Assembly (NCBI RefSeq): GCF_000765215.1
Contig: NZ_JPJE01000011.1
Coordinates: forward strand, 1 to 48,827
Length of the DNA stretch: 48,827 nt
Direction of reading: 5' to 3'
DNA from: Eubacterium sp. ER2
Lineage (GTDB): Bacteria; Bacillota; Clostridia; Lachnospirales; Lachnospiraceae
Positions 44,494-48,793 of the stretch are shown here, piece by piece. Below the pieces are notes generated by a model. The model saw only the letters and a list, made by a program, of their open reading frames with translations, had not been told where the DNA came from and searched no databases. Position numbers and translations under genes: made by a program. Every line of letters begins with the position of its first letter. Position 1 is the first letter of the stretch.

Positions 44494-45555
44494 ATGCATG
44501 TTATGCAGATGAACGATGTGATACGAAGAAAGCGCAGGGAGCTTGGTCTCACCCAGGAGCAGGTGGCGGAGTATCTGGGCGTGTCGGCGCCCGCTGTGAA
44601 CAAGTGGGAGAACGGCGCCACCTACCCGGACATTTCCCTTGTCCCCGCCCTGGCCCGGCTTCTGAAGTCAGACCCCAATACGCTGATGTGCTTTCGGGAG
44701 AGCCTGACCCGGGAGGAGATGGCAAAAGAGATGAATGAGGTGGCCCGGATTTCCCAGGAGGAGGGGGTAGAGGCAGCCGTCGACCGGGTCAGGGACCTGG
44801 CGGAGGAATATCCCTCCTGCGGGGAGCTCCTGTACCAGCTGGCTACCATGTTGCGGGGACTTGTGATCCTTAGGACGGCGGGAGACGAGCAGCGGCAGGA
44901 GTGCCAGGAATATGCGGTCCGGCTGTATGAGAGGGCGGTAAAATGCGATGACCCTGTGTCCGCGGACCGCGCCAGATATGCGCTGGCCTCCCTCTGTATC
45001 CAGGAGGAGGACTATGAGAAGGCGGGGGAATACCTGCAGCGCCTTCCCGAGTACAGCTCGCTGGACAAAAGACAGCTGCAGATTTCCATGTATATGAAGC
45101 AGGAGAAAAATGAGGAGGCCGCCAGGCTGATCGAGCAGAAGCTGAACGGCTCCATCATAGAGGTCTATCTGCTTCTCGACAATCTGGCCACTGTGGCCGC
45201 GCGGGAGGGTGACCGGGAGCGGGCCCGGGAGATCGCCGGCTACGGGCGGAAGGTGATGGAGGCCTGGCAGTGGGATTACAGCGGCCTGACTCTGGAATTT
45301 ACGGTGGCCGTGGAGGAGAGGGACGGGGACCGCTGCGTGGAGCTGTTGCGGGAGATGCTGGACTCCCTGTCCAGACCACGGGATATGGAAAAATCTTTCC
45401 TTTTTGCCCACATTGCCACGAAGGAGCTGGACCCGGATCTTGGAGGGCAGATAAAGGATGCCCTCATGACGGCCATTGAGAAGAATGAGCAGTACGCATT
45501 TTTAAGGGAAAGAGAAGATTTTCAGGAGCTTTTCAGAAGCTTAAGAAAGAGGTGA
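44494..45555 (+). CDS. XRE regulator with helical-repeat C-terminus
   Basis: 353 residues. Helix-turn-helix at about 8-60 (IRRKRRELGLTQEQVAEYLG, SAPAVNKWENGATYPDISL), followed by about 280 residues of TPR-like helices (ARYALASLCIQEEDYEKAGEYL, AAREGDRERAREIAGYGRKV). Such proteins are peptide- or stress-responsive regulators in Firmicutes. A GAGGAGG site precedes the start. The alpha/beta hydrolase gene begins 7 bases later, so the pair is one operon. Confidence 0.85.
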   Translation: MHVMQMNDVIRRKRRELGLTQEQVAEYLGVSAPAVNKWENGATYPDISLVPALARLLKSDPNTLMCFRESLTREEMAKEMNEVARISQEEGVEAAVDRVRDLAEEYPSCGELLYQLATMLRGLVILRTAGDEQRQECQEYAVRLYERAVKCDDPVSADRARYALASLCIQEEDYEKAGEYLQRLPEYSSLDKRQLQISMYMKQEKNEEAARLIEQKLNGSIIEVYLLLDNLATVAAREGDRERAREIAGYGRKVMEAWQWDYSGLTLEFTVAVEERDGDRCVELLREMLDSLSRPRDMEKSFLFAHIATKELDPDLGGQIKDALMTAIEKNEQYAFLREREDFQELFRSLRKR

Positions 45556-46570: not shown

Positions 46571-46633
46571 TATATGTATTTAACAAGAAGAAAGGGGACA
46601 GGAGGGCCGGTGAGCTCTCCTGCGGAGAAGGTT

Positions 46634-48256
46634 ATGAAGAGTTTACTGATACTTGGGGCCGGCGGATTTGGCCATATGATCCAGGAGACCGCGCAGCTTC
46701 TGGGATATGAGAAGGCAGTGTTTCTTGACGACGCGGTGAGAGAGCCGGATGTGGTGGGAAAATGCTGCGACTATGAGAGCTTTCTGGGACAGTATGACAC
46801 GGCTGTGGCGGCCCTGGGAGACAACAACATGCGCCTTTACTGGACAGAGAAGCTGATGGAGGCGGGGTACAATGTGCCGGCCATCATCCATCCGTCGGCG
46901 GTGGTAAGCCCCAGTGCATCTATCGGAAGAGGGAGCTTTATTATGCAGAGGGCTATTGTCAACACCCACACAGTGGTGGAGCACGGAGTCCTCATCAACA
47001 GCGGCGCTGTGGTGGACCACGACTCCTACGTGGAGCGGGGCGCCCACATCGGCCTGGGGAGCGTGGTGAAGGCGAACTGCCGCATTGCCTCAAAGGTGAA
47101 GGTGGAGGCCGGGGAAGTGATCTTTTCTACCAGAAGAAAGATTGACGGCGTGGAGGACAGGAACCTGGAGGATGCCATCTACGCCTTTGGCTTTGGCAAC
47201 CGCTGCAGCTATGTGAAGCCCTTTGGAGCCGGCCACATCAATGAGACCTACGCGGTCTACATGCCCGGCCAGGATGGTGATGAGCTGTCCTATGTCCTGC
47301 AGAGGGTGAACAGCAACGTATTTAAGGATCCGGCCGGAGTCATGGACAATATCTTCGGCGTGACCGAGTATCTGAGAAATGTGATCCGCAGGGAGGGAGG
47401 AGACCCGGATCGGGAAACCCTCTCCTACATCAAGACAAAGAGCGGATGTAACTACTTTGAGGACAGCGAGGGGGAGCCCTGGAGATGCTACAATTTCATC
47501 CCGGACTCTGTCTGCTACCAGCTTGTGGAGAAGCCGGAGCAGTTCTATCAGTCCGGCAGCAGCTTCGGCCATTTCCTGAAGCAGCTTTGCGACTATCCGG
47601 CATCCAGATTAAATGAGACGATCCCGGATTTCCACAACACGGTCAAGCGGTTTGATGCCTTCCAGGTCGCCCTGAAACGGGATCTGAAAAACCGTGCCGC
47701 TTCCTGTCAGCCGGAGATTGATTTTGCGCTGGCCAGAGAGAAGGACTGCGGTGTGCTGGTGGAGCAGCAGAACGCAGGCATCCTGCCCCTGCGGGTGACC
47801 CACAATGACACAAAGCTGAACAACATTCTTTTTGACGAGAAGACGGGGAAAGGGCTGTGCATCATCGATCTGGATACCATCATGCCAGGACTTGCGGCCA
47901 ATGATTTCGGTGACTCCATACGCTTCGGCGCCGCCACGGCAGAGGAGGACGAGCCCAATCTGGATCTGATGCACTTTGACATTTCCCTCTACGAGCTGTA
48001 TGTGAAGGGGTATCTGGAGGAGACGAAGGATGTTCTGACTGAGGCGGAGATAAAGAGCCTTCCCTGGGGTGCCCGGCTCATGACGCTGGAGTGCGGCATT
48101 CGCTTCCTGACAGATTATCTCCAGGGAGATACCTATTTCAAGACAGATTATCCGGAGCACAATCTGGTCCGGGCCAGGACACAGTTCCGTCTGGTGGATG
48201 AGATGGAGCAGCAGTTTGACCGCATGCAGGAGATTGTGGAAAAGTATACAAAATAG
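46634..48256 (+). CDS. fusion of NeuD/PglD-like acyltransferase and NahK-like sugar kinase
   Basis: 540 residues from ATG 46634 (GGAG 9 bases upstream); ATG 46574 is in frame but lacks a ribosome site. Residues about 1-185: NeuD/PglD-like, nucleotide-fold start KSLLILGAGGFGHMIQETAQ and left-handed beta-helix repeats (IHPSAVVSPSASIGRGSFIM, VEHGVLINSGAVVDHDS). Residues about 190-540: an aminoglycoside-phosphotransferase-fold kinase resembling N-acetylhexosamine 1-kinase, with NRCSYVKPFGAGHINETYAV, catalytic THNDTKLNNILFD and metal-binding IIDLDT. Together they could acylate and phosphorylate an amino sugar. No frameshift joins them. Confidence 0.8.
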   Translation: MKSLLILGAGGFGHMIQETAQLLGYEKAVFLDDAVREPDVVGKCCDYESFLGQYDTAVAALGDNNMRLYWTEKLMEAGYNVPAIIHPSAVVSPSASIGRGSFIMQRAIVNTHTVVEHGVLINSGAVVDHDSYVERGAHIGLGSVVKANCRIASKVKVEAGEVIFSTRRKIDGVEDRNLEDAIYAFGFGNRCSYVKPFGAGHINETYAVYMPGQDGDELSYVLQRVNSNVFKDPAGVMDNIFGVTEYLRNVIRREGGDPDRETLSYIKTKSGCNYFEDSEGEPWRCYNFIPDSVCYQLVEKPEQFYQSGSSFGHFLKQLCDYPASRLNETIPDFHNTVKRFDAFQVALKRDLKNRAASCQPEIDFALAREKDCGVLVEQQNAGILPLRVTHNDTKLNNILFDEKTGKGLCIIDLDTIMPGLAANDFGDSIRFGAATAEEDEPNLDLMHFDISLYELYVKGYLEETKDVLTEAEIKSLPWGARLMTLECGIRFLTDYLQGDTYFKTDYPEHNLVRARTQFRLVDEMEQQFDRMQEIVEKYTK

Positions 48257-48288
48257 AGATACAGAATAAGAAATACAAAATAAAGACA

Positions 48289-48349
48289 AAGGAGAAGAGC
48301 TCTCTTGAGAACCTTGCTTACACAGGTTCCCGGGAACTCTTCTCCTTTC
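48289..48349. terminator. bidirectional terminator between convergent genes
   Basis: Arms AAAGGAGAAGAG (48289-48300) and CTCTTCTCCTTT (48338-48349) with an inner GAACCT/AGGTTC pairing, placed between the fusion gene and the minus-strand selenoprotein gene. Confidence 0.85.
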
Positions 48350-48353
48350 TGCT

Positions 48354-48650
48354 TTATGTGGAATAAATCCCGTTTACAGTAATCTTTTTGAAAAAGCGGG
48401 AGAGACCGAGGGTCACGGTGTCGGCCGTGCGCAGCGGCTCCCGGTAGATCAGGACCTCGCCAAAATCGTGGGCGAAGCTCTGAAAGCCATTTTCTTTCAG
48501 GGAGGCCGCCTCATCCGGATCGGCAAACCTTGCCGATATATTCAGCATCGGGCCGCCTCACGTGGCGCACACATGAGGGCTGATCAGGATGTGGCTAAGT
48601 CCCTTTTCCTTCATGTGCTCGGTCAGCCGTTTATCCAGCTTCACTTTCAT
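48354..48650 (-). CDS. probable selenoprotein, HesB-like / CC-Se motif family
   Basis: 98 codons from ATG 48650 to the stop at 48354, with an in-frame TGA at codon 31 (48560-48558). Before it: KRLTEHMKEKGLSHILI, SPHVCAT; after it: GGPMLNISARF, EEAASLKENG-type text, then GEVLIYREPLR, VTLGLSRFFKKITVNGIYST. Both sides are clearly one protein, of the small HesB-like type in which a Cys or Sec precedes GGP. With Sec at 31 the motif is C28-A-T-U31-G-G-P, a plausible redox or metal site. A stable hairpin with a GGU loop lies 28 bases after the UGA. Reading the TGA as a stop would give a useless 30-mer. Function unknown. Confidence 0.75.
48519..48537 (-). promoter_or_regulatory. bacterial SECIS-like hairpin
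   Basis: On the minus strand ATCGGCAA-GGT-TTGCCGAT: perfect 8-bp stem with a GGU apical loop, loop 28 bases downstream of the TGA. Bacterial SECIS elements need a hairpin whose loop begins with G about 16-37 bases after the UGA, which this satisfies. Confidence 0.7.
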
Positions 48651-48793
48651 GATCATCCATCCCTTCTGTAAGTATTATTGTAACTGTATTGTACAGAAAA
48701 AACAAAAGGAATTCTGTGACAAGGTTACACTTTCAGAAAGAGCGCGGTCTGAAGGCCTGGTTACAGCTGATTTGCAACTGATTTGCAGCCGAT

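Follow-up and report, generated by a model that had tools for sequence, protein, structure and literature searches.

The window analysed here is the whole 48,827-nt stretch of Eubacterium sp. ER2. Close to its right-hand end, the minus strand carries a frame of 98 codons which starts with the ATG at 48648-48650, ends with the TAA at 48354-48356 and contains a single TGA at codon 31, all at the positions given by the initial annotation. Based on this frame and on homologous N-termini, we describe 48354..48650 (minus strand) as a probable selenoprotein gene of 98 aa with selenocysteine (Sec) at residue 31; a start at the other possible ATG, at 48656, would lengthen the protein by two residues. 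The TGA (48558..48560, minus strand) lies in the context CATUGGP and the protein around it reads SPHVCATUGGPMLNISARFADPDE. The codon at 48567..48569 (minus strand) encodes Cys28, the only cysteine of the protein and the putative partner of Sec31 in a CxxU motif. On the 3' side of the gene, 48270..48356 (minus strand) folds into a strong hairpin (-39.5 kcal/mol) followed by a T-rich stretch, a possible terminator; a simple promoter and terminator scan picked up none, including at this place. The neighbouring gene at 46574-48256 (plus strand) is convergent with the selenoprotein gene and encodes a protein of 560 aa that combines a PglD-type domain at its N-terminus with an APH phosphotransferase domain.

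The initial annotation had predicted that a standard gene caller would report only a 64-aa C-terminal part of this protein. The table-11 list of open reading frames (at least 40 aa) agrees, since of the whole frame it holds just the 64-aa ORF 48354-48548, which begins at the internal ATG at 48548. One could therefore argue that the TGA is a true stop, leaving either a pseudogene or a 64-aa protein made from the internal ATG. In line with this, TGA is a normal stop elsewhere in the genome: the host selA, selB and selD all terminate with it, and so does the gene of the window that ends at 45555. The same observation excludes a changed genetic code.

Downstream of the TGA, the minus strand can form a stem-loop of bacterial SECIS (bSECIS) type at 48519..48537, identified by hairpin criteria and covariation. 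Its 8-bp stem, ATCGGCAA/TTGCCGAT, is formed by 48530-48537 with 48519-48526 and closed by a GGU loop (48527-48529). The hairpin noted initially, 8 bp with a GGU loop, is thus present, with one correction: the 28 nt counted from the UGA lead to the start of the loop, the stem beginning at 20 nt. The available text of a 2026 review defines bSECIS elements by a stem of 4-16 bp, a loop of 3-9 nt with a G in loop position 1 or 2, a distance of 16-37 nt from the UGA and a minimum free energy of -7.5 kcal/mol or lower (PMC13188914). With its 8 bp, 3-nt GGU loop, 28-nt distance and -9.2 kcal/mol, the window hairpin falls within all these bounds. Hairpins of this type at -9.2 kcal/mol or lower are no rarity as such: they follow 25 of the 1,696 TGA triplets on both strands of the window. 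Among the 31 in-frame TGAs of the window with open flanks (at least 25 codons before the TGA, with a start, and 60 after), only that of the selenoprotein gene is followed by a bSECIS-type hairpin at -7.5 kcal/mol or lower. Folding of the 71-nt stretch gave a z-score of -2.4, with 5 of 200 shuffles equally good, and Rfam returned no match at gathering score anywhere in the window. Taken alone, the folding z-score is modest and the weight comes from conservation in relatives.

We searched for such relatives in 397 genomes of the family, 391 of the class and 11 of the genus, draws that overlap. The family search yielded 21 matches in 17 of the 397 genomes, each of the 21 with one TGA. The class search, with a 15-protein profile, gave 15 matches: two in the host's own genome (one being the paralogue L056), nine further TGA forms, two Cys forms and two that were judged unrelated and dropped (L054, with a 916-aa open frame, and L055, of 47 residues with its TGA elsewhere). 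In the genus, 10 of the 11 genomes carry a member of the gene family. Two near relatives of the host are the Lachnospiraceae Claveliimonas monacensis, which has the gene at 78% identity, and Lachnoclostridium sp. An118. In total, 44 distinct places, the window gene included, have a TGA at the corresponding motif, and it is retained down to 21-25% identity. The alignments comprise 46 homologue rows; L018 and L019 apparently derive from the same contigs as L058 and L057. Homologues had been proposed initially as a check on the TGA codon, where Cys might be expected. They show TGA in the 44 places, a Cys codon in two, and no credible unrelated sense codon. These two sense-codon homologues, L050 and L053, carry Cys-Cys at the site.

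Five forms of the motif were found: CxTUGG, as in the window, SU[TA]G, TSUCAPP, CU and GGGUC. A cysteine lies at position -3 of the Sec in 18 of the 46 rows, at -1 or +1 in 26 and at none of these in two. The latter are the SUTG forms L038 (G085) and L039 (G384), L039 having no cysteine anywhere in the frame read. CxxU chemistry is therefore not universal in the family. The TSUCAPP form, with its Sec-Cys pair and one TGA, includes the paralogue L056 (L086) of the host genome G000 (C15:153853-154146), in which NCBIfam models found no match up to E = 0.001. A tree of 41 rows, from which near-duplicates and the broken L032, L041, L060 and L068 were left out, separates 31 rows on the window's side from ten CC/Se-side rows with 97/93 support. 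In this tree the CxTUGG rows do not form one clade (3 changes) and may represent a grade; L048, L050 and L053 are long-branched.

Selection on the sequence past the TGA was estimated from six close genes. In 14 of the 15 pairs dN/dS after the TGA was 0.09-0.35, the 15th pair having saturated dS. Such low values indicate that the sequence after the TGA is protein. Three of the 44 places, however, appear broken after the TGA, as could be expected if it were a true stop. L032 (G085) ends after 53 residues, L041 departs from the family pattern half-way, with an intact copy (L034) in the same genome, and L060 runs into a TAA at a contig end. In the surroundings of L032 (L080), several genes are shorter than their counterparts in L075, and frame errors in the assembly may account for this. 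In G777, a species of the genus, the gene is split, its first part (L060/L085) and its last part (L068/L087) lying at the ends of two contigs, a pattern that a repeated element within the gene or a break in the assembly could produce; L068, the C-terminal piece of this broken copy, was excluded from the counts.

The hairpin was then compared among relatives. In the 16 distinct CxTUGG and SU[TA]G rows, 95.3% of the cells were paired and both-sided changes occurred at 5 of the 8 pairs, while pairing fell to 12-45% when the partner was shifted by 1-3 columns. On four of the five measures no shuffle out of 500 came up to these values, and 137 did on the fifth (further pair types), figures that are not probabilities, since the rows are related to one another. 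For 16 SUCAPP rows, pairing reached 89.8% with both-sided changes at 4 pairs; on the five measures 0, 8, 0, 211 and 1 of 500 shuffles were equal, the 8 referring to both-sided pairs, and the same reservation applies. Codon usage points the same way. Of the 16 CxTUGG and SU[TA]G rows, 15 encode the alanine of SARF by GCA, a codon used for 12.6% of 340 alanines in ten genes of the host genome, which agrees with the hairpin being kept as RNA.

The distance from UGA to loop differs between forms by about one codon more or less: 28 nt in CxTUGG, 25 nt in SU[TA]G and 30-31 nt in SUCAPP. In spite of this change in spacing, the hairpin of these three forms keeps to the codons of one strand of the protein (SARF/SVSF). 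The CU and GGGUC forms have theirs at a different site, 20-22 nt from the UGA. Just 12 of the 46 homologue rows have a hairpin that is uninterrupted and has a free energy no higher than -7.5 kcal/mol; four rows, including the paralogue L056, are at -1.8 kcal/mol, and L048 has no G at the start of the loop. As judged by covariation, the hairpin is conserved as an RNA element.

Recoding requires Sec machinery, and the initial annotation had suggested searching for its genes. The host genome (3.27 Mb in 74 contigs, completeness 99.9) indeed contains selA, selB (368 bits, well above cut-off), selD and tRNA-Sec (65 bits), together with yedE and yedF. They lie in a selenium cluster (L020, C56:112500-132400) composed of yedF-selD(UGA)-selA-selB, a desulfurase-family gene, yedE, tRNA-Sec and prdC, the last being a proline reductase-associated gene within this 20-kb stretch. 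The host selD has an in-frame TGA of its own, at SKTAGUAAK. A proline racemase-like gene occurs on the opposite strand of the same stretch, with matches under the curated cut-offs.

The screen for tRNA-Sec covered 57 genomes, with presence defined as 60 bits or more. By this measure 24 of the 25 family carriers (genus included) have tRNA-Sec, whereas only 2 of 21 non-carriers do (Fisher p = 9e-10, a value that takes the genomes as independent, the carriers being in fact related to each other). The non-carriers were the first 20 listed of the 380 family genomes with no match, plus the genus member G782. The one family carrier with no tRNA-Sec at this level, G352, has selB at 375 bits. Among the nine class TGA carriers, tRNA-Sec scored at least 67 bits in six and 47-50 bits in the other three, which have selB over the cut-off, so that each of the 34 carriers examined has at least one of tRNA-Sec and selB. 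The two genomes with the Cys form have no selB over the cut-off, and for tRNA-Sec they score at best 44.1 and 47.3 bits, against a gathering score of 47. In the class genomes G667, G611 and G525, which belong to the same family (f24) and carry UGA forms, selB scores of 378-394 bits accompany tRNA-Sec scores of 47-50 bits; this suggests a divergent or missed tRNA-Sec. In two family genomes, G005 and G019, tRNA-Sec and selB are present and the search found no member of the gene family.

The tracking of Sec machinery by the carriers is difficult to reconcile with a true stop. So are the retention of the TGA at one motif in 44 places, over so wide a range of identity, and the purifying selection past it. 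In addition, the internal Met is replaced by Arg, Tyr, Phe or another residue in many relatives, and the first strand, the helix and the second strand of the predicted fold (see below) all precede the TGA position. Despite the 64-aa ORF, the ordinary TGA stops of the host and the few broken relatives, we regard a true stop as extremely improbable.

Insertion of Sec at the UGA, as proposed initially, is instead borne out by machinery, TGA conservation, purifying selection, hairpin covariation and co-occurrence, and we consider it very probable that codon 31 is recoded as Sec in a protein placed in the family described below. Guided by the hairpin with its loop 28 nt further on, SelB and Sec-tRNA would decode the UGA of codon 31 as selenocysteine, and the ribosome would complete the 98-residue chain rather than halt after 30 residues. 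The product would be one of a group of small proteins that are homologous to NF041239 and occur chiefly in Lachnospiraceae, the family of the window, and its Sec31 and Cys28 would form a CxxU site.

The same co-occurrence might suggest a protein that delivers selenium or sulfur for the Sec or selenouridine pathway, as every TGA-form genome tested has tRNA-Sec or selB. This association, however, already follows from the UGA of the genes themselves. Moreover, the window gene lies outside the sel cluster of its host, and Cys forms exist in genomes with no selB over the cut-off. A delivery role thus appears quite improbable.

Pfam and NCBIfam scans of the window protein gave no fitting model. A rubrerythrin-like match (15.4 of 32 bits) spans just 16 residues around the motif and was rejected as noise. 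The NF041239 model, which stands for NCBI's CC/Se motif (seleno)protein family and has a curated cut-off of 40 bits, did not match the window protein even with E-values of up to 1 allowed. It matched weakly 6 of the 21 members of our alignment A1, the top score of 28.2 bits, for the CxTUGG member L028, being the best among ten relatives scored (nine of CxTUGG or SU[TA]G type, plus L031). The cut-off was passed by L045, L046, L047 and L050, three CU forms and one CC form and none of CxTUGG type, and L053 fell narrowly under it with 37.7 bits. Of the ten rows of our CC/Se alignment (A5), five were scored against NF041239 and four were over the cut-off. Nevertheless, hhalign joined the window group to the CC/Se group at 98.0% with an E-value of 1.7e-13 over 93 columns, indicating homology over the whole length. 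In the available text of the 2026 review, which counts 119 prokaryotic selenoprotein families or subfamilies, Table 1 lists the CC/Se motif family with the motif CxxU and the HesB-like family with UxGP (PMC13188914). The window gene would thus be a CxTUGG-type variant beside NF041239, set apart by model score, with the CxxU motif itself already on record.

The initial annotation had called the protein HesB-like, a label that fits the predicted fold and fails for the family. On the side of sequence, the HesB-like model TIGR01911 matched neither the window protein nor anything else in the host genome, and PF01521 (IscA/HesB/SufA) gave no match in the window protein either. By hhalign, the window group aligned with TIGR01911 at 18% probability, Sec falling on Sec, and the CC/Se group did better, at 85%. 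The A1 profile had no convincing match among PDB sequences, the best being a DUF4465 protein with an E-value of 0.021.

On the side of structure, AlphaFold models of the window protein (pLDDT 85.9, pTM 0.76) and of an NF041239 member (pLDDT 87.4, pTM 0.77) both matched IscA/SufA proteins best. For the window model, the top eight Foldseek matches in the PDB were of IscA/SufA type (probability 0.51-1.00, TM 0.33-0.53), 2apn and 1nwb being counted as such through their match to a HesB-like profile. For the NF041239 member, the top ten comprised seven IscA, SufA or Fe-S biosynthesis proteins by title, 2apn, 1nwb and one YNER, with TM up to 0.64. E-values never reached 0.001, the best being 0.0034 for the window model and 0.0016 for the other. 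At these modest scores, the models favour, as a prediction, an IscA-like fold in which the Sec lies close to the position of the first ligand Cys.

Could the protein then be an A-type Fe-S carrier of the classical kind (IscA/SufA/HesB), with Sec standing in for the first of the cluster-binding cysteines? Beside the fold matches, Sec31 falls on the HesB Sec/Cys in the profile alignment, if weakly. In addition, the search of the host genome (listed completeness 99.91) found no PF01521 protein, so that a substitute would be useful. A-type carriers have three ligand cysteines, two of them in a C-terminal CxC. The window protein, by contrast, has no cysteine after Cys28, and Cys28 and Sec31 are its only thiol and selenol residues. 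Furthermore, PF01521 and TIGR01911 give no match, and in 44 of the 46 rows a second thiol lies at -3, -1 or +1 of the Sec. Given the missing C-terminal cysteines in particular, we do not view the protein as a classical Fe-S carrier, a reading that we hold to be unlikely.

Genes around family members were compared in 20 stretches, which include the SUCAPP paralogue, both G777 pieces and two contigs represented twice each. They form 43 clusters, of which 11 join different genera or the paralogue, and most of these are shared far from the gene. The 560-aa PglD/APH protein (cluster 0) adjoins the selenoprotein gene in several members of the genus. DNA-repair genes occur near family members in three genera (L076, L077 and L078): a UvrD-type helicase gene lies upstream in L076 and L077, which are of different genera, and an O6-methylguanine methyltransferase-type gene and RecQ lie downstream in L076 and L078. 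In L071 the downstream genes include one of the phosphorylase superfamily, and such a gene also adjoins the paralogue (L086). Among the 20 stretches no neighbour recurs in more than three genera, and no function is therefore drawn from neighbours, DNA-repair genes included. The possible terminator of the window gene and the absence of a partner recurring beyond three genera would fit a free-standing small protein.

For the selenoprotein itself, we see about an even chance that the CxxU site on its IscA-like scaffold acts in redox or as a ligand, by forming a reversible selenenylsulfide or by binding a soft metal or metalloid. A wider proposal, which we regard as speculative and unlikely, is that these proteins form a branch of the IscA/HesB fold in which the C-terminal cluster ligands were lost and the site was rebuilt around Sec. 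The partner Cys would have settled at -3, -1 or +1 and disappeared in one branch, the hairpin being kept on the SARF/SVSF strand in the CxTUGG, SU[TA]G and SUCAPP forms while entire codons were gained or lost in the stretch that separates it from the UGA. The outcome would be either a site where a selenol ligates a metal or an Fe-S cluster, or a new scaffold for a selenenylsulfide oxidoreductase.

The NCBIfam and Pfam models used here miss the window gene, and an annotation that relies on these models is thus expected to give a 64-aa fragment or no gene at all. Neither a CxTUGG nor a SUCAPP family is named in the available text of PMC13188914, PMC12013277, PMC1794560, PMC2398784, PMC5029168 and PMC9312934, and an earlier description may exist. 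With its SUCAPP paralogue, the window gene makes two recognisable types of Sec gene in the window's family. Together they offer a compact natural system for studying the joint evolution of Sec position, partner Cys and SECIS spacing, and the role of an IscA-like scaffold that lacks the classical cluster ligands. If the selenol-site proposal holds, such a scaffold would be scattered in Lachnospiraceae, outside the family models used.

One of the known or related systems is the paralogue L056. Like the window gene it has one TGA, a downstream hairpin (weak in L056, as noted above) and a place on the same side of the tree, but it carries a vicinal Sec-Cys (UC) instead of CxxU and its loop lies 31 nt past the UGA instead of 28. 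NF041239, the nearest family by sequence, shares with the window protein its length, homology over the whole profile, a Sec near Cys and, for the member modelled, an IscA-like predicted fold; its model nevertheless misses the window protein, and the proteins above its cut-off are CU or CC and not CxTUGG. The HesB-like selenoproteins of TIGR01911 are also small, have in many members a Sec before G-G-P and belong to the fold class predicted for the window protein, whereas some of them possess C-terminal Cys clusters that the window protein does not have. Finally, the IscA/SufA carriers (PF01521) provide the best PDB fold matches of both models, in contrast to the absence of any sequence match and of C-terminal cysteines in the window protein.
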